DNA of 64,000 nucleotides from Chelatococcus composti (GTDB lineage: Bacteria > Pseudomonadota > Alphaproteobacteria > Rhizobiales > Beijerinckiaceae). The stretch is from the NCBI RefSeq assembly GCF_014201415.1, contig NZ_JACHEH010000007.1, positions 124,001 to 188,000 on the forward strand, in the 5' to 3' direction. Shown piece after piece: positions 54,540 through 62,438 of the stretch (positions within the stretch are counted from its first letter, which is position 1; each line of letters begins with the position of its first letter). Below the pieces are notes generated by a model. The model saw only the letters and a list, made by a program, of their open reading frames with translations. It ran no database searches and was not told where the DNA came from. The position numbers were made by a program, and so were the translations under genes.

Positions 54540-54737
54540 ATGTGCCGGCGCTTCACTGCCCACTTCCTGCGCCACCCGCGCCGGTGGCGCATCGCACGGC
54601 GCATGGCCGCCGCCGGATGGCCGAGGTACGCCATCTGCCGCGCGCTCGGCATCCGGGCCGAGCGCCTCGCCGCCGCGATGGCCCGGGCGGACCTGCGGGG
54701 CCCGGCTGAGGTGGCGCTTTTCCGGAGGGCTGCGTGA
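54540..54737 (+). CDS. Small highly basic phage protein, unknown
   Basis: The 65-residue product is very Arg-rich (MCRRFTAHFLRHPRRWRIAR) with a possible helix-turn-helix-like AAGWPRYAICRALGIRAERLAAAM. It starts 2 bases after the CII-like stop and overlaps the primase start, which supports translation. No family is recognised. Confidence 0.6.
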   Translation: MCRRFTAHFLRHPRRWRIARRMAAAGWPRYAICRALGIRAERLAAAMARADLRGPAEVALFRRAA

Positions 54738-55942
54738 TGGCGCGCCTGTCCGAAGCCCAGCTCGACGAGATCCGCGCCCGCCACCCGGTGGCGGAGGTAG
54801 CCGGCCGGTGGGTGACCCTGCGCCGCTCGGGCAGCAAGCTCATCGGCCCGTGCCCGATCTGCTCCGACAATCGCCAGAGCCGGACGGCCGGCCGCTTTGA
54901 GGTGGATGGCGACCGCTGGGTGTGCGCCGTGTGTGCCGATGGCGGTGACGTGATCCGCCTCGTGCAGCGGGTGCAGGGGCTCGACTTCCGCGCTGCCGTG
55001 GCCTGTCTGGGCGGGGCCGAGGTGCTTGACCCCGAGGAGGAGCGGCGCCGGCAGGTGGAGCGGGAGCGCCGGCGCGCCCGGCGCGAGCGCACGGCCGCCA
55101 TCATGCGCGAGCGGGAGCGGGAGCGCCTCTTTCGTCTGTGGCAGGGGGCCGAGCCGATCCGCGGCACGGCGGCCGAGGAATACCTGCGCCTCCGCGGGCT
55201 GAGGCCTCCGCCCGACGGGCGCCTGCGCGCGGCGCGCGAGATGCCCTACTACCACGGCGAGGAGCCGGATCCGCGACGGCCGGGCAAGACGCGGCAGCGC
55301 GTGATCTATACGGGTCCGGCCATGCTCGCCGGCATCGTGGGCCCCGACTGGCGCTTCGCCGGGCTGCACATCACCTGGGTGGACCCGTCGCGGCCGAAGG
55401 GCAAGGCGCTCATCGTCGACCCCGAGACGGGCGAGGTACTCAAGGTCAAGAAGGTGCGCGGTTCCAAGCGGGGCGGGCACATCCACCTCGCCGGCCCCTT
55501 CGGCCCGCAGGCGCGACCGAGGCGCGTGATCCGCGGCGAGGGCATCGAGACGGTGCTGTCCGTCCGCCAGGCGCTCCTGGCGCAGGGGGAGGACCTGAGC
55601 GCCACCGTTTTCCAGAGCTCCATCGACCTCGGCAATCTCGGCGGCCAGCACGCCGGCACGGTGCCGCACCCCGCGCTGACGCGCGCGGACAGGGCAGGGC
55701 GCGAGCGCTCCGTGCTCGTGCCCGGCCCGGTTCCGGACATGAGCCAGCCGGGCATCCCGCTGCAGGATAGCGTGACGGAGCTGGTGCAGCTCGGCGACGG
55801 CGATTCCGAGCGCTTCCTCACCGAGTGTGCGCTGCTGCGGGGCGCGGCCCGCTACGCGCGGCCGGGCCTCACCATCCGCAACGCCTGGGCGCCGGAGGGG
55901 GCGGACTTCAATGACCTGCTGCTCGAGGAGGTGGCGGGATGA
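54737..55942 (+). CDS. Phage DNA primase with CHC2 zinc finger and Toprim-like domain
   Basis: The 401-residue protein has an N-terminal CHC2-type zinc finger (C39, C42, C63, C66 in GPCPICSD and WVCAVCADGG) and a long charged Arg/Glu helix (about 92-130). A Toprim-like domain follows, with the acidic EGIETVLSVRQALL motif and GAD FNDLL end. It primes phage DNA synthesis, probably with the P4-type helicase downstream. GGAGG lies 8 bases before the ATG at 54737. A GTG three bases upstream is possible. Confidence 0.9.
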   Translation: MARLSEAQLDEIRARHPVAEVAGRWVTLRRSGSKLIGPCPICSDNRQSRTAGRFEVDGDRWVCAVCADGGDVIRLVQRVQGLDFRAAVACLGGAEVLDPEEERRRQVERERRRARRERTAAIMRERERERLFRLWQGAEPIRGTAAEEYLRLRGLRPPPDGRLRAAREMPYYHGEEPDPRRPGKTRQRVIYTGPAMLAGIVGPDWRFAGLHITWVDPSRPKGKALIVDPETGEVLKVKKVRGSKRGGHIHLAGPFGPQARPRRVIRGEGIETVLSVRQALLAQGEDLSATVFQSSIDLGNLGGQHAGTVPHPALTRADRAGRERSVLVPGPVPDMSQPGIPLQDSVTELVQLGDGDSERFLTECALLRGAARYARPGLTIRNAWAPEGADFNDLLLEEVAG

Positions 55943-56523
55943 GACAGGGCGCGGACAGGCACGCGCTGGCCGAGCGCAAGGATGACCTTTACGAGACGCC
56001 GCCGGAGGCGACCCGGGCGCTGCTGCGTGTTCAGCCCCTGCCGCCGCGGATCTGGGAGCCGTGCGCAGGCCGCGGCGCCATTGCGCGCGAGCTGGCAGCG
56101 GCCGGACACGAGGTGGTGGCATTCGACCTCGTGCCGCACCCCGGCGCCGACCCGGGAATCGTGACGCCCGTCGACTTCCTGCTGGAGCGCCAGGCGCCGG
56201 AGGGCTGCGACTGCATCGTGACGAACCCTCCCTACAAGCTGGCGGACGCCTTCATCCGGCACGGGCTGACGCTGGTTCCGACCGTGATCGTGCTGCTGCG
56301 CCTCATGGCGATCGAGGGAGCGGGGCGCTCCGACCTCATCGACCGGCATCTCGTGCGCGTATGGGCGGGCATCGAGCGCCTGCCGGCCATGCACCGTGAA
56401 GGCTGGACGGGCAACCGCCTGAGGGGCGCGGGCGCGCCCTTCGCCTGGTTCGTGTTTTCCGCCAAGCCCCGGCCGGCTGGAAGCCCCGTCGAGCTCATGC
56501 GCATGTCGTGGAGGGAGCCATGA
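55939..56523 (+). CDS. NPPY-type SAM-dependent DNA methyltransferase
   Basis: The 194-residue protein has motif I of Rossmann methyltransferases (IWEPCAGRGAIARELAAAGHEVVAFDL) and motif IV TNPPYK, which marks N6-adenine or related amino-methyltransferases acting on nucleic acid. No target-recognition domain is evident, so the recognition sequence is unknown. It overlaps the primase stop (ATGA) and its stop overlaps the GcrA-type start. Confidence 0.8.
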   Translation: MRQGADRHALAERKDDLYETPPEATRALLRVQPLPPRIWEPCAGRGAIARELAAAGHEVVAFDLVPHPGADPGIVTPVDFLLERQAPEGCDCIVTNPPYKLADAFIRHGLTLVPTVIVLLRLMAIEGAGRSDLIDRHLVRVWAGIERLPAMHREGWTGNRLRGAGAPFAWFVFSAKPRPAGSPVELMRMSWREP

Positions 56524-57059
56524 CGGACCCGGCAATCCGGGATGCCATTGTCGCCGCCTATGGACGGGAGAGCGCCGCTGCGCTGGCCGCGCGCTACGGC
56601 AAGACGAAGAATGCCGTCATCGGCATCTGGTTTCGCCATGTGCCGCCCGAGCAGCGGGCGGAGATGCTGCGCAGCCCGGCGCGAAAGGCGGTGATGGCGG
56701 CGGCAAGGGCCCGCAAGGCGCGGGCGCGGCGGGAGCGGAAGAAGGCGCTCCCCGTGGAGCTGCCGGCGCTGCAGATGGAGCCGGCCCGCGAGCCGTTCTC
56801 GGAGATCGGTGTCGGCCTCATCGACCTCTTGCCGGAGCACTGCCGGTTTCCCATCGGGGACGGGCGTGCCATCCGCTACTGCGGCGCGCCGCGGCTGTAC
56901 AAGCCGGGCATGTTCTCGGACGGCTGCTCGCCCTACTGCGAGGAGCATACGCGGCTTTGCTATGTGCCGCTGGAAGCGCGGCAGGAGCGGAAGCTCAAGC
57001 GCAAACAGAAGGACGTGGCACGGCGCCGGCCCCAGCAGATCGCGTGGGGGGGGCTGTGA
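56520..57059 (+). CDS. GcrA-family cell-cycle regulator, phage copy
   Basis: The 179-residue protein fits GcrA. It has an N-terminal helix-turn-helix (IVAAYGRESAAALAARYGKTKNAVIGIWFRH), a basic linker, and the C-terminal LPEHCRFPIGDGRAIRYCGAPR...GCSPYCEEHTRLCY cysteine/histidine block. Host GcrA recruits sigma-70 RNA polymerase to promoters bearing N6-adenine methylation. Here it directly follows an NPPY methyltransferase gene with an ATGA overlap, suggesting they work together. GGAGGGA precedes the ATG. Confidence 0.85.
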   Translation: MTDPAIRDAIVAAYGRESAAALAARYGKTKNAVIGIWFRHVPPEQRAEMLRSPARKAVMAAARARKARARRERKKALPVELPALQMEPAREPFSEIGVGLIDLLPEHCRFPIGDGRAIRYCGAPRLYKPGMFSDGCSPYCEEHTRLCYVPLEARQERKLKRKQKDVARRRPQQIAWGGL

Positions 57060-57352: not shown

Positions 57353-57673
57353 ATGACGTATCCCGTCTCGGCGCGCGCTGACGCGTGCCCGCCTGATCTT
57401 CTCGTCTACGACTGCTTTGTCGCAATTTGCGAGGCTGTGGCCGACATCAACGGCCTCGTCACGGCGGGCTCCGCTATCGTCCGCCAGGTCGATAACCAAG
57501 ATCTGCGTGCCGCGCTGGGCGGCATCAACAAGGTCATCGATTCAGTATCGCGGTTGATCGCCGAGCATGCAGAGCGCGGTCTTGAGGCCGACGCCGAGCG
57601 GCGGATGCGAGAGAAGGCGATGGGCGGTCCGCGAGCGCCGCGCCCCGTGCCGCGCGCGGAGGTAGGGGCGTGA
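57353..57673 (+). CDS. Phage protein of unknown function
   Basis: The 106-residue product is helical (DLLVYDCFVAICEAVADINGL, NKVIDSVSRLIAEHAERGLE) with no recognised family. I chose the ATG at 57353, preceded by GGAG. The frame is open back to an ATG at 57059 that overlaps the GcrA stop (TGATG), but the extra 98 codons look non-coding. Its stop overlaps the antirepressor GTG. Confidence 0.6.
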   Translation: MTYPVSARADACPPDLLVYDCFVAICEAVADINGLVTAGSAIVRQVDNQDLRAALGGINKVIDSVSRLIAEHAERGLEADAERRMREKAMGGPRAPRPVPRAEVGA

Positions 57674-58473
57674 CCATGCAGAAGGTCATCCCTGTCGACT
57701 TCCGTGGCGACGTCATCTGGGCCGTTGATGACGATGGCGCCGTCTTCATTGCCGTTAAGCCAATCGCGGAGCGGCTCGGCCTCAGCTGGGGAGCCCAGTA
57801 CAGGCGTCTCCAGCGCGACGCGGTCCTGTCTAAAGGTATTTCCATCATGGCAATACCTTCGCCTGGGGGGGCGCAGGACACCGTCTGCCTACCGCTCGAT
57901 TTTATCCCTGGCTTTCTGTTCGGCCTCGACGAAAGGCGCGTGAAACCGGAACTGCGCGAGAAGGTCGTCGCCTACAAGCGTGAATGCCATCGCGTGTTAT
58001 ACGACCGCTTTTTCGGCCAAGGAGCCGAGGGGCAGGGGCCGGACGAGGCGCCCCCTTTCCGCCGCGTCCTTTTGCCTGGCCATCCCGATTTCAGCCAAGC
58101 GGTGCGGCTGGTACGAGAGGCGCGCCTCACGCGCGGGACTGAAGCCGCGCTCGCCATCTGGCGGGTGATCGGCTTGCCGTGGGTGCCCGAGCTTGAGGCA
58201 GCTGCCGCAACTGGGAGAATCGGCGAGCCGACGGATTCCGTCGCGCAGTTTGCGGTCGATGGCATTGAGCGTGCGCCGGGTGTTTCAACGCCGGCTGCGG
58301 CGCTGTGGCAGGCATACTCGGCCTTCTGTACGGCCCGGGGGCTCGAAAACCTTGGCGAGCGGAGCTTCCTGACGCGCTTTGCGAGCATCGGATTCGCGAA
58401 GCGGAAGTCCATGGGCCGCTCGGTCTATCTCAATATCCGGCCGGTTGTCGCGGCGGGCGAACGAGCGGAGTGA
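57670..58473 (+). CDS. Phage antirepressor (P22 AR N-terminal domain) with a primase-type C-terminus
   Basis: The 267-residue protein starts with a P22_AR_N-like domain (KVIPVDFRGDVIWAVDDDG, AERLGLSWGAQYRRLQRD, then LPLDFIPGFLFGLDERRVKPELREKVVAYKRECHRVLYDRFF, about 1-118). The last 60 residues (YSAFCTARG...GFAKRKSMGRSVYLNIR) resemble the C-terminal winged helix of the P4-type helicase encoded next. It likely neutralises a repressor. It starts at GTG 57670 (GGAGGT six bases before); ATG 57676 is the alternative. Confidence 0.82.
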   Translation: MTMQKVIPVDFRGDVIWAVDDDGAVFIAVKPIAERLGLSWGAQYRRLQRDAVLSKGISIMAIPSPGGAQDTVCLPLDFIPGFLFGLDERRVKPELREKVVAYKRECHRVLYDRFFGQGAEGQGPDEAPPFRRVLLPGHPDFSQAVRLVREARLTRGTEAALAIWRVIGLPWVPELEAAAATGRIGEPTDSVAQFAVDGIERAPGVSTPAAALWQAYSAFCTARGLENLGERSFLTRFASIGFAKRKSMGRSVYLNIRPVVAAGERAE

Positions 58474-58545
58474 GCGGATGCTGGCTGCTTGCCACGTCAC
58501 CCGCGTCTGTCGCGCCCAGCGATCGCCGAACTGGCGGAGTCCGGC

Positions 58546-60309
58546 ATGACCGATGACCCGTTGCGCACCATTGCCGAGATCGTGGAGAACGCGGAGCCGG
58601 TGGACATTGCGCCCACCGGCGATGGCGGCGGCCCTCGCACACCCGGCGGCGGGGATCGAGGCGTGGGCGGCGGCGAGCCGCCGGAGCTTGTGCCTGATCC
58701 GGTGGACTGGGAGCTGGTGCGCCGCTGCGCTGCCGAGCCGGAGACGGACATTGGCAATGCCCGGCGCTTTCTGCACCGCTACCGAAACGACGTCATCTCC
58801 GTGATGCGCATCGGCTTCCACGTTTACGACGGGCGGCGGTGGGCCGAGGACGTGGAGGGAGCGAGCATTCGCCCCCTGGCGCACAGGACGGTGGAGGAGA
58901 TCCGCCTTGAGGCGACGCTGGTCGAGCCGACCGAGGAGGAGCAGGCGGCCATCGCAGCGGCCGAGGAGGTGATGCCGCGGTATACTAGGCTGAAGAAACT
59001 CGGCCGCCAGCGCGCGCCCGAGGAGGAACTGGAGCTGCTGCGCCTCGGAGAGATCGTGGGGCTCGGCGCCGAGGTGGCCAAGGCAATCTCGGAGCGGCGC
59101 GCCAGGCGCGTGCGCTATGCCAAGACCTCGGCCTCGTCTGGAAAGATCGACAACATGCTCAAGGAGGCGGCTGTCTATGTCGCGAAATCCGTCTCCGAAC
59201 TCGACGCCGACCCTCTCGCCATCAATTGCCACAACGGCACGTTGCGCCTCGTCCGGCAGGGCGAGGGCAAGCAGGCCATCTGGACCGTGCGGCTCGACCC
59301 GCACCGGCGGGAAGATCTCATCTCCAAGCTGATCCCGGTGGCCTATGACGACGCGGCGGAGTGCCCGAACTTCCTGCGCTTCATCGAGACGGTGCTGCCG
59401 GACGACGAGGTGCGCGCCTTCATGCAGCGCTACCTGGGCTATGCGCTGACGGCCCTGACGGGCGAGCAGGTCTTCGTCTTCCTCTACGGGCAGGGGCGCA
59501 ACGGCAAGTCGACCCTCGTGGACCTCATCTGCCGGCTGCTCGGCGACTATGCTGCATCCGTGCCCTTCGAGACGCTGGCGGGCGAGGACCGCCGCAAGGG
59601 GTCCGAGGCGACGCCCGAGCTTGCCCGTTTGCCGGGCACGCGGCTTGTGCGCGCGAGCGAGCCGGAGCAATCGATGCAATTTCGCGAGGCGATGGTGAAA
59701 TCGCTCACCTCGGGCGAGCCCATCCTGGTGCGCCATCTGCACCGAGACTTCGTGGAGGTGTACCCCACCTTCAAGCTGGTCGTGTCAGGCAATCACAAGC
59801 CGACCATCAAGGGCACGGACGACGGCATCTGGCGGCGCGTGCTGCTGGTGCCGTTCCTCGTGCAGATTCCCAAGGAGGACATCGACCGCTCGCTGCCGGA
59901 CAAGCTGTGGGCTGAGCGGGCCGGTATCCTCAACTGGCTCATTGCGGGCGCGCTCTCTTACCTGCAGGAGGGGCTGGGCATCCCGGAGGCCGTGCGGGCG
60001 GCCACGGACGAATACCGCGAGGAATCGGACCCGGTGAGCGCCTGGGTGCGCGAGGCCTGCATCGTCACCGGTGAGGACACCGACGTGATGACGCCGGGCG
60101 AGGCGCACGCCTCGTTCAAGGTGTTCTGCGAGCGGGCCGGCTTCAATGCCTGGGGACCGACGACATTCAACCGCAACCTGCCGCTCAAGGCCGCGGCATT
60201 CGGATTCCGCAAGGCGAAGTCGATGGGCATGAGCCTCTACCGCGGCCTGCGCATCAAGGACGAATACCGGCCGCCCTCGCACACCCATGGCGGGGACAGC
60301 GAGGGCTGA
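58546..60309 (+). CDS. P4-type/D5 primase-helicase
   Basis: The 587-residue protein has a D5_N-like region, then an SF3 helicase core. Walker A is GQGRNGKS (315-322), followed by the ELARLPGTRLVRASEPEQ strand, the motif C region TFKLVVSGNHKPTIKGTDDGIWRR, and a C-terminal winged helix (FKVFCERAGF...FGFRKAKSMGMSLYRGLRIK). It unwinds phage DNA at the origin. The ATG at 58546 has GGAG 6 bases upstream. The repeat-rich tract directly downstream may be its origin. Confidence 0.92.
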   Translation: MTDDPLRTIAEIVENAEPVDIAPTGDGGGPRTPGGGDRGVGGGEPPELVPDPVDWELVRRCAAEPETDIGNARRFLHRYRNDVISVMRIGFHVYDGRRWAEDVEGASIRPLAHRTVEEIRLEATLVEPTEEEQAAIAAAEEVMPRYTRLKKLGRQRAPEEELELLRLGEIVGLGAEVAKAISERRARRVRYAKTSASSGKIDNMLKEAAVYVAKSVSELDADPLAINCHNGTLRLVRQGEGKQAIWTVRLDPHRREDLISKLIPVAYDDAAECPNFLRFIETVLPDDEVRAFMQRYLGYALTALTGEQVFVFLYGQGRNGKSTLVDLICRLLGDYAASVPFETLAGEDRRKGSEATPELARLPGTRLVRASEPEQSMQFREAMVKSLTSGEPILVRHLHRDFVEVYPTFKLVVSGNHKPTIKGTDDGIWRRVLLVPFLVQIPKEDIDRSLPDKLWAERAGILNWLIAGALSYLQEGLGIPEAVRAATDEYREESDPVSAWVREACIVTGEDTDVMTPGEAHASFKVFCERAGFNAWGPTTFNRNLPLKAAAFGFRKAKSMGMSLYRGLRIKDEYRPPSHTHGGDSEG

Positions 60310-60647
60310 GGCGCGCCTTGCCGAGGGAGGCTAGGGAGGCTGGCGGGCGCGCGGCTCGGCTGCCTCCCTCGGGGAGGGCGAGGGAGATCAACGGGTTAGG
60401 ACGGTAGGGAGGCTAGGGAGGCAATCCGGGCGGACGCGCGTGAGAGGCTGGCGCTCATCAGGGTTATGAGCGGGTTTCGTTCTTACGCATCACGACACTC
60501 TTGCCTCCCTACCTTCCCTGAAAGCGAACCGAAAGGAAAAAAGAGGAAAGAGTGCAAGGGTTTAGGGAAGTAAGAACCTGCGCATGGTGCCTCCCTGCGA
60601 TCCTCCCTAGCGTCCCTTGCCTCCCTGATGACAAAGGAGCGGCGGCA
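60310..60647. repeat. Iteron-like repeat tract after the helicase gene (candidate phage origin)
   Basis: This 338-bp gene-free stretch repeats TAGGGAGG on both strands. The exact 16-mer GGGAGGCTAGGGAGGC occurs at 60325 and 60407. Its reverse complement occurs 14/16 at 60503-60518. CCTCCCTA recurs at 60504 and 60602, and GCCTCCCT also at 60589 and 60619. Helicase-proximal iterons of this kind usually mark a replication origin. No AT-rich unwinding element stands out, except around 60530-60560 (GAAAGGAAAAAAGAGGAAAG). Confidence 0.65.
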
Positions 60648-61526
60648 ATGACGGCAAAGCGGGTGATGGATATCGAGGCTGTGCTGCGGTGGGCCTACCG
60701 GGACGAGTTGCCGAAGGCCGCGCCGGCGCGGGCCGGGCTTGCGCGAGGGATGAGTGCCGCATGGAGCAGCGTCGAGTCCTTCGTCGAACTGCTCACGGTG
60801 ATTGACGACAACAGCTTCGGCGTCGTGCCTGATCTCCTCTCCTCCAACGGCCCGCATGCGGACGCCATCGCCATCTTCGAGCGGGTGCGAGCGCTCGATG
60901 ACCTCGAAATCGAGCTGCCCGACGACTGGAACCCCATGGTGGACCTCGGCGACCTCGGCGACCTCGGCCGGGAGGCGATTGCCCGCGCGATCGACGCCGC
61001 GACCATCGTCGACGAGCAAAATCGCCGCCGTCTCCGGCGCACGCCGCGCCGGCTCGTGGAGAAGCACGCCATCCTCGGCGGGTGCCCGGACTGGGAAATG
61101 GAGGTGCCGGTCGTTGAGGTGGTGCGCCGCGGGAAGACCGGACAGCCCGCCTGGTTCGTGAAGGAGACGATCTGGGAGGAAGCCTTCGGCGGGCAGCGCG
61201 TTGCGCGCGTCGTCGAGGTGGACGGCTTCAGCTACACGCGCCGCCGCCCTCGCCCGGGCGCGTACCAGAAAACCCACCTTGTTCCCGATCCGGTGCCAGG
61301 GCTCGTCGAGCGCGCAGAGTATGAGGTGTGGCGGGCGGCGCTCGACCTGCTGACCGAGGAGCTTTCTGGCCAGCTCGAATCGATCGATGTGCGTCCTTCG
61401 CCTCGCCCGCACCGCCCGTGGGAGGTGGGGCGCCCCGGCCAGCGTGTCCTTGATAGTCTTCTGAAACCATTGCCGGACAAGGAAGTGAGGGCCAAACGCC
61501 CGCGGCGAGCGAAGCAGGGGGCTTGA
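60648..61526 (+). CDS. Hypothetical phage protein downstream of the repeat tract
   Basis: The 292-residue product is not recognised. It has a helical, acidic N-terminal half with a short repeat (VDLGDLGDLGREAIARAID, around 103-121). A DWEMEVPVVEVVRRGKTGQ beta-rich middle and a basic tail (KEVRAKRPRRAKQG) follow. The ATG at 60648 is preceded by AAAGGAGC. Position suggests a role in early-to-late transition or DNA handling, which is inference only. Confidence 0.7.
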   Translation: MTAKRVMDIEAVLRWAYRDELPKAAPARAGLARGMSAAWSSVESFVELLTVIDDNSFGVVPDLLSSNGPHADAIAIFERVRALDDLEIELPDDWNPMVDLGDLGDLGREAIARAIDAATIVDEQNRRRLRRTPRRLVEKHAILGGCPDWEMEVPVVEVVRRGKTGQPAWFVKETIWEEAFGGQRVARVVEVDGFSYTRRRPRPGAYQKTHLVPDPVPGLVERAEYEVWRAALDLLTEELSGQLESIDVRPSPRPHRPWEVGRPGQRVLDSLLKPLPDKEVRAKRPRRAKQGA

Positions 61527-61582
61527 CGCGCGACCTTTGTTTGGCGATAGGTCGGGACAGACGAAAAGGTCTCAAATTGACG

Positions 61583-61613
61583 AACCCCGCCGGGACACCC
61601 GCGCGGGGTTTTT
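61583..61613 (+). terminator. Rho-independent terminator in the rightward phage operon
   Basis: An 8-bp stem AACCCCGC/GCGGGGTT is followed by TTT. It lies 57 bp after the hypothetical gene and separates the early/replication block from the tail-Z/terminase block. Confidence 0.8.
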
Positions 61614-62411: not shown

Positions 62412-62438
62412 CGGGGAGCTTCGCGGCGTATGTTTCAC

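Follow-up and report, generated by a model that had tools for sequence, protein, structure and literature searches.

The 338 bases between the stop codon of a D5-family helicase gene and the start of the phrog_9306 gene at 60648 (60310-60647) are very probably the lytic replication origin of a prophage. They lie near the end of the window, the whole stretch of 64,000 nucleotides of Chelatococcus composti DNA analysed here, which covers the early/replication region of the prophage. An origin recognised by the helicase or the primase had been predicted from the repeats in this tract, and comparative tests support that reading: the tract is placed 3' of the helicase gene, its arms are inverted, and the layout is kept in relatives while the words change. 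Units, arms, dyad and this conservation with changing words are all established at the level of the DNA sequence.

The repeat tract

The tract holds about 13 units of 9 bp, part of them degenerate and most of them in tandem, with the word TAGGGAGGC. The first unit starts 13 bases past the helicase stop, and the G-rich strand is forward in the left arm and inverted in the right arm. The genes and elements discussed below are as follows.

54734-55942, forward strand: CHC2 zinc-finger/DnaG-like phage primase, a separate gene (Zn_ribbon_DnaG 3.8e-09, DUF7146 2.9e-18, phrog_510 1.3e-60)
58489-60309, forward strand: D5/P4-family SF3 helicase, 606 aa, with D5_N, AAA+ and a C-terminal winged helix
60046-60279, forward strand: part coding for the predicted winged helix, residues 520-597, from the secondary structure of the model
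60323-60340, forward strand: left outer iteron pair (GAGGGAGGC TAGGGAGGC), units at 60323 and 60332
60362-60370, reverse strand: lone inverted unit within the left arm (octamer and weight matrix)
60396-60422, forward strand: left inner iteron triplet, with exact or near units at 60405 and 60414 and a degenerate first unit, 60396-60404 (TTAGGACGG)
60434-60442, no strand: left alternating purine/pyrimidine tract ACGCGCGTG, 9 nt, first half of the inner dyad
60452-60472, no strand: perfect 7-bp hairpin CGCTCAT-7-ATGAGCG in the centre, which could also be a terminator
60484-60490, no strand: alternating TACGCAT, 7 nt, on the right, the inverted partner of the left tract
60503-60520, reverse strand: right inner iteron pair, TAGGGAGGC and degenerate CAGGGAAGG read on the reverse strand
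60563-60571, forward strand: lone degenerate unit TAGGGAAGT within the right arm (weight matrix)
60589-60627, reverse strand: right outer iteron cluster, units at 60589, 60601, 60610 (degenerate) and 60619
60648-61526, forward strand: downstream gene, phrog_9306 (2.2e-56)

The original prediction started from a 16-mer that occurs exactly twice. This is GGGAGGCTAGGGAGGC, at 60325-60340 and 60407-60422, inside a 17-mer at 60324-60340 and 60406-60422; period and unit are both 9 bp, and the 16-mer is two head-to-tail units of TAGGGAGGC. The single inverted near-copy (14/16) described with it was correct as to the inversion but too low in number, since three are found at no more than two mismatches of the 17-mer (60503-60519, 60601-60617 and 60610-60626), and with about 13 units the repeat is bigger than first noted. 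No supportable gene was found in the tract, in line with its description as gene-free; of the two mechanical ORFs that cross it, 60552-61526 on the forward strand is the downstream gene with an earlier start codon, and the other is 60483-61412 on the reverse strand.

In the whole 3.7-Mb genome the 17-mer has six matches at up to two mismatches, five of them inside the tract; the sixth is on another contig, where no array was seen on reading the surrounding 601 bases. The octamer AGGGAGGC occurs 10 times in the 64 kb, eight of these within 60324-60626 with four on each strand, and none of 100 window shuffles reached 10 (mean 3.6, largest 9). Scanned with a 9-bp weight matrix, the 338 bases contain 11 units where the rest of the window would predict 0.73; this count is a description and no independent test because the matrix was built from nine of the same units. 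The 9-mer with one mismatch is not rare by itself, with 16 matches in the window, a number reached by 9 of 100 shuffles. It is the clustering and spacing of the units, rather than the abundance of the 9-mer, that set the tract apart. An Rfam search of 60200-60800 returned no RNA element up to E 1, and 59900-61600 gave no DNA similarity to phage records at E 1e-5.

The helicase and its neighbourhood

The helicase matches Pfam D5_N (8.7e-25), DUF5906 (3.4e-09), phrog_1156 (1.1e-132) and TIGR01613 (9.4e-71), and has the D5_N and primase_Cterm helicase parts with a Walker A motif. In its AlphaFold2 model (mean pLDDT 87), a predicted winged helix forms the C-terminus, with helices at residues 536-550 and 557-571 and wing strands at 574-578 and 581-585; this block is modelled with pLDDT 89-95 across residues 531-590, in a prediction and not a solved structure. 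The closest solved structures by profile and fold are ASFV PrimPol, the SaPI5 primase-helicase and poxvirus D5/E5. With the SaPI5 enzyme (7ola), Foldseek gives a TM score (target) of 0.61-0.64 and the profile match has E 9.7e-15. The protein had been called a P4-type primase-helicase. The P4 family part of this name stands, the match to TIGR01613 (P4 family primase C-terminus) being far over the cut-off, but only D5_N and helicase parts are present, and the primase is the separate gene at 54734. This DnaG-like primase is likely the partner of the helicase.

The order of prophage genes is CII-like regulator, CHC2/DnaG-like primase, methyltransferase-like protein, GcrA-like protein, P22_AR_N/Pox_D5 antirepressor, helicase, tract, phrog_9306, GpZ-like protein and both terminase subunits. 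The small and large terminase genes are at 62430 and 63128, the first starting 1.8 kb past the tract. The GcrA-like cell-cycle regulator is encoded at 56508-57059 (Pfam 1.6e-10). The antirepressor at 57670-58473 is a hybrid in which P22_AR_N is fused to a Pox_D5 C-terminal part, and the latter resembles the winged helix of the helicase by eye (KSMG.S.Y..IR in common). It was considered as a second reader of the iterons and dropped, the likeness to the winged helix being weak (domain E 1.2e-05 in a single-protein search) and the examined flanks of L007-L009 yielding no relative.

Conservation of the layout behind related helicases

A total of 131 non-redundant helicase ORFs were taken from 162 profile matches in the collected loci; 60 of them, scoring at least 640, are treated as close relatives and the other 71 as a weaker-scoring set. 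Segregated arms were called where the tandem units of the left side and those of the right side lie on opposite strands, at least 40 bases apart, with a word of at least three letter types and not of G/C only. Such inverted arms with 9-bp spacing were found at 55 of the 60 close loci, against 1 of 257 single 500-base upstream control stretches. Forty-eight of the 55 have them in the first 500 bases past the stop. The other seven begin 0.5-1.7 kb downstream and are weaker cases because each control was a single try whereas helicases were given up to 11 stretches; the arms of L088 at 1.47 kb may be due to chance. The segregated-arm finder detected no arms at L090, L092, L094, L095 and L113, some of which yielded a word to looser finders. 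Words that an early 2.7-kb scan had proposed for L020, L041, L088, L090 and L094 were discarded as poly-G or chance. Among the weaker-scoring helicases, arms were found in 30 of 71, a set that counts contig L121 three times, includes the truncated close-kind helicases L028, L033 and L193, and has a few doubtful words, those of L072 and L153 among them.

The 9-bp period is also seen without the arm finder. In the 500 bases behind the helicase, 8-mer pairs at lag 9 number 12.2 per locus in 126 loci against 1.5 in 171 controls, and no other lag from 6 to 30 exceeds 2.3 pairs per locus in these 126 loci. Of these 126 loci, 85 have tandem units on both strands, compared with 14 of the 171 controls and 4 of 630 shuffles.

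Relatives keep the layout and change the word, as in TAGGGACGC, TAGGACAGC, ACGGGCCTG and TAGGGAGGA. Viral contigs L007 and L008 carry near-identical tracts behind the helicase and L009 a diverged one. Helicases at 45-48% identity retain the layout with another word: L012 has TAGGGACGC together with TAGGGAGGC, and L010 and L011 a TAGGACAGC-type word. L014 has no arms directly past the helicase gene and a candidate 1.7 kb further. By eye, the layout was seen in AmM-1, RcapNL, RR1-A (about 1.8 kb from the helicase), the cyanophages Pan4 and Nsp-JY21, and Lactobacillus phage A2. A protein with a DnaA helix-turn-helix (Bac_DnaA_C 3e-14) is encoded immediately before the helicase of AmM-1 (L015 2781-3968), and in Rhizobium phage RR1-A a Bro-N/Pox_D5 protein lies immediately upstream of the TAGGACAGC-type repeat tract (L016 6732-7457, 7450-7880).

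Scanning 2.9 million viral contigs for TAGGGAGGCTAGGGAGG, the 17-mer of the window, brought up 25 loci, several on already-known contigs. Nineteen lie no more than 1 kb 3' of a helicase or a helicase-like C-terminus; of the remaining six, four have the match less than 400 bases from the edge of the locus, including L043, which shares a contig with helicase locus L081. The pattern GGACAGCTAGGACAG was a poor bait: of its 38 loci, 6 were near the 3' end of a helicase. The 9-bp word GGACAGCTA forms tandem arrays in viral contigs at L170 3143-3341 and L184 629-733, where the examined DNA showed no D5 helicase 3' end within 3 kb.

A wider panel of 12 phage records, chosen from 60 listed of 1183 with a match, was read by eye; one (L215) stops at the helicase stop, and 11 regions were judged. 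Repeats with inverted copies were seen in phi105, JNU_P5, EV3, T25, AcaML1, A2, MaeJY02, RcRhea, a Listeria phage and a Methanoculleus virus, and none in TforTroy. The Methanoculleus virus has GGGCA-type repeats and inverted copies behind its D5 helicase (L209 3150-3520, by eye) and is a possible archaeal case of the layout.

Geometry of the arms

Forty-nine loci, the set also used for the correlations below, remained when near-identical helicases were removed from the 55 armed close loci, and most have mirrored unit positions about the dyad. Inner pairs or triplets lie at about 46, 55 and 64 bases from the dyad (clusters at roughly +-46 to 68), and outer units at about +-130 to 165. The median number of same-strand units per arm is 5, against a background of 0.02-0.08; the commonest counts are 5 and 6 on the left arm and 4 to 6 on the right. 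Mirror agreement is 0.70-0.72, compared with 0.55-0.58 when outer units were placed randomly. Left-arm units inverted like that at 60362 occur in 22 of the 49 loci, and 14 of these are 95-135 bases from the dyad; the window's own unit scores below the threshold used for this count. Judged by the number of sites, the mirrored arms may be loading sites for two opposed hexamers.

The centre between the arms

The centre has a median length of 82 bases. Most loci have an alternating tract in this centre, often of the TACGCGCGTG kind and usually by the left arm, with a shorter inverted partner, often like CTCATGCGTA, by the right arm. Alternating runs of at least 10 nt were found in 41 of 47 close centres, compared with 6.2% in the background of the same loci and 12.9% in dinucleotide shuffles; two of the 49 centres were left out, being longer than 130 nt, and the window is absent from the 41 because its own tract is 9 nt. 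In wider centres the count is 21 of 30 (background 4.7%, dinucleotide shuffles 20.0%). In 81% of cases, against 22% of shuffles, a run of at least 7 is also present in the opposite half of the centre.

In the low-G+C phages A2, phi105, EV3 and JNU_P5 the alternating runs are TA repeats, which composition may partly explain. By eye, no alternating run of at least 9 nt was seen in four members of the panel, namely RcRhea, the Listeria phage, the Methanoculleus virus (all three with repeats) and TforTroy, and the run of T25 is 9 nt. The AT content is 41% in the centre of the window's tract against 32% in the window, and 47% in the centres of the 49 relatives against 36% in the locus. A literature search, largely outside subscription journals, found no report of an alternating tract at phage origins. 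The central hairpin was dropped as a conserved element, since relatives' centres fold with a mean z of -0.9 (n=47, 19% below -2), little better than shuffles.

The part of the helicase that may read the word

When words were predicted from the nearest neighbour, the mean word distance was 0.187 for the recognition helix plus wing, 0.224 for AAA+, 0.252 for D5_N and 0.321 for random pairs. Helix plus wing does better than D5_N (p 0.004); the difference from AAA+ is not clear (p 0.057). A simple Mantel test of word against winged helix gives p 0.0005. The partial Mantel p for the whole winged helix is 0.12 in the cleaned set when the ATPase domain is controlled for, 0.026 in a noisier set and 0.22 with another baseline. 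By subregion, the values are 0.04 for the wing, 0.06 for helix plus wing and at least 0.2 for the other five, uncorrected for seven regions. The word also varies within a single locus. Co-variation of word and winged helix beyond shared ancestry is thus suggestive only. The C-terminal winged helix of the helicase is a better candidate binder than the primase.

Comparison with known origins

According to the accessible part of one report, the origin of phage-inducible chromosomal islands (PICI) lies immediately 3' of rep with two iteron sets flanking a centre, and the EcCICFT073 rep-ori replicon maintains a plasmid in E. coli (PMC6092414). The rep-ori of SaPI5 and EcCICFT073 resembles our tract in its position immediately 3' of the putative initiator gene and in its two iteron sets, and the SaPI5 primase-helicase is related to the window helicase by profile and fold. 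In contrast to these islands, the phages here are autonomous tailed phages with terminase genes, their repeats have a 9-bp period, and between their arms lies an alternating purine/pyrimidine centre with an AT content that is raised only mildly (47%, the locus having 36%). The prophage is read as a phage and not as a helper-dependent satellite of the PICI kind, as small and large terminase genes and a GpZ-like tail gene follow, and the tract was not filed as PICI because of these genes. By analogy, it would nevertheless work like a PICI origin.

In Lactobacillus phage A2, an annotated rep_origin lies over such repeats at the end of and behind a D5-family primase gene, with ACGGGAGGA units, inverted copies and two alternating tracts, GTATATATATA and ATATATACGTA. 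A2 differs in its low G+C, mixed 12-/9-bp spacing and fewer units, as read by eye. Iteron plasmid origins of the RepA/TrfA type rely on a Rep that lacks a helicase domain and on iterons of about 20 bp, unlike the 9-bp period and adjoining helicase of the tract. In phage P4, the alpha protein includes a primase domain, and ori and crr are separate sites. The window helicase belongs to the same helicase family (TIGR01613) but shows no N-terminal fused primase domain, only D5_N and helicase families being matched.

The winged helix of P4 alpha is said to bind repeats at the P4 origin (PMC4234260). The same text places the essential origin of the Sulfolobus replicon pRN1 within 166 bp downstream of the gene for a replication protein that combines an SF3 helicase with a C-terminal winged helix, which is the arrangement seen here, although the pRN1 origin is described there as one stem-loop of about 100 nt with no iterons. 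The isolated C-terminal domain of Cch2, a D5_N family helicase of SCCmec, binds short iterons downstream of its own gene (PMC7581432); Cch2 differs in having three 5-nt iterons (AAGTG) and a different primase, and mirrored arms are not described in the part of that text available. From published experiments on these relatives we infer that the C-terminal domain of the window helicase binds the units and that the tract acts as an origin. PMC7145576, in its accessible part, concerns an unrelated initiator family.

Alternative explanations

Placed between early and late genes, the tract could also consist of operator or attenuation sites bound by a regulator such as the CII-like or the P22_AR_N/Pox_D5 protein, which would control the late genes downstream while replication starts elsewhere. 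Regulators with a Pox_D5 C-terminal part are indeed nearby both in the window and in RR1-A, and the hairpin at the tract centre (60452-60472) is terminator-like (1 found against 0.4 in shuffles). We consider this explanation highly improbable. The P22_AR_N/Pox_D5 protein has no relative in the examined flanks of L007-L009, whose repeats match or nearly match, and a search limited to the sigma-70 type found no promoter in 60200-60800. The arms, moreover, track the helicase amid other neighbours and in phages of other host phyla, and the layout is kept where the tract sits 0.5-1.7 kb further off. A recognition region for packaging by the terminase (pac or cos) is the least probable of the alternatives. 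The terminase genes (62430, 63128) are close by, and in RcapNL an annotated 3' cohesive overhang lies a few bases past the last iteron (arms at L017 5687-5982); this overhang falls outside the iteron arms, however, and the repeats are also found behind D5 helicases that have no annotated terminase neighbours (A2, EV3, AcaML1).

The arms might also act by folding, as a G-quadruplex or another structure-forming DNA, instead of being read by a protein. Four G tracts are present in GGGAGGCTAGGGAGG, a stem-loop serves pRN1-type replicons at the corresponding place (accessible part of PMC4234260), and the 338 nt as single-stranded DNA beat 100 shuffles with z -3.0, a value expected of inverted arms. 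Words of relatives such as TAGGACAGC and AAGGACAGA, however, have no runs of three G under an unchanged layout, and the centres by themselves reach a mean z of only -0.9, with 19% of 47 below -2. Folding is even less probable than regulation by operators, if not as remote as packaging.

A model of initiation and its significance

As a replication origin, the tract could work as follows. The C-terminal winged helix of the D5-family helicase would read the 9-bp word, and helicase subunits would assemble on the five to six units of each arm. Being inverted, the arms would orient two rings face to face across the 80-bp centre, where the alternating pyrimidine/purine dyad would be the site of duplex distortion and opening. 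Each hexamer would then load and unwind outward, and the separate DnaG-like primase (54734) would start synthesis. The presence of two hexamers on the tract DNA and melting at the alternating tract are purely inferred steps of this scheme.

We tentatively suggest, while holding it somewhat doubtful, that the core of a D5-helicase origin is strict pyrimidine/purine alternation and not AT-richness, provided by CG steps at high G+C and by TA steps at low G+C, at the dyad between mirrored arms of five to six units. The core would then be a sequence-independent melting or Z-DNA-prone element for two self-loading hexamers, and the word, read by recognition helix and wing, would change freely and keep co-resident replicons apart, the two probable origins of this genome being an example. 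The alternating centre and the readable word are the least certain and the most interesting parts of this work.

Helicase-linked iteron origins are known from PICI, with the annotation of A2 as a phage precedent; the autonomous phages, the 9-bp iterons and the alternating centre are new. Autonomous phages of Alphaproteobacteria, cyanobacteria and Firmicutes, and perhaps an archaeal virus, can now be added to the phage-inducible islands to which this layout was described as peculiar. The layout provides a sequence rule for probable origins in uncharacterised phages, namely a word of 9-bp period behind a D5 helicase, forward and then inverted, round an alternating tract. The loading of D5-family helicases on duplex DNA and the opening of the central region in GC-rich phages become testable; for vaccinia D5, the founder of the family, helicase activity in vitro had not been demonstrated as of 2020, according to the accessible part of PMC7581432. 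The layout and its changing words suggest how such helicases locate their own start site.

A second D5 helicase in the same genome

A second D5 helicase was found in the same genome at C3:122039-123445 (within L218, C3:120000-124500). Behind it are TGGCGGATG TGGCGGGTT, a 21-nt alternating tract, and then inverted units of the TGGCGGATG and TGGCGGTTG kinds. Both this tract and the rep_origin deposited on such repeats in A2 fit the origin reading of the tract at 60310-60647. The two co-resident D5 helicases are followed by the same build with different words, which would be expected if each had an origin of its own to find.
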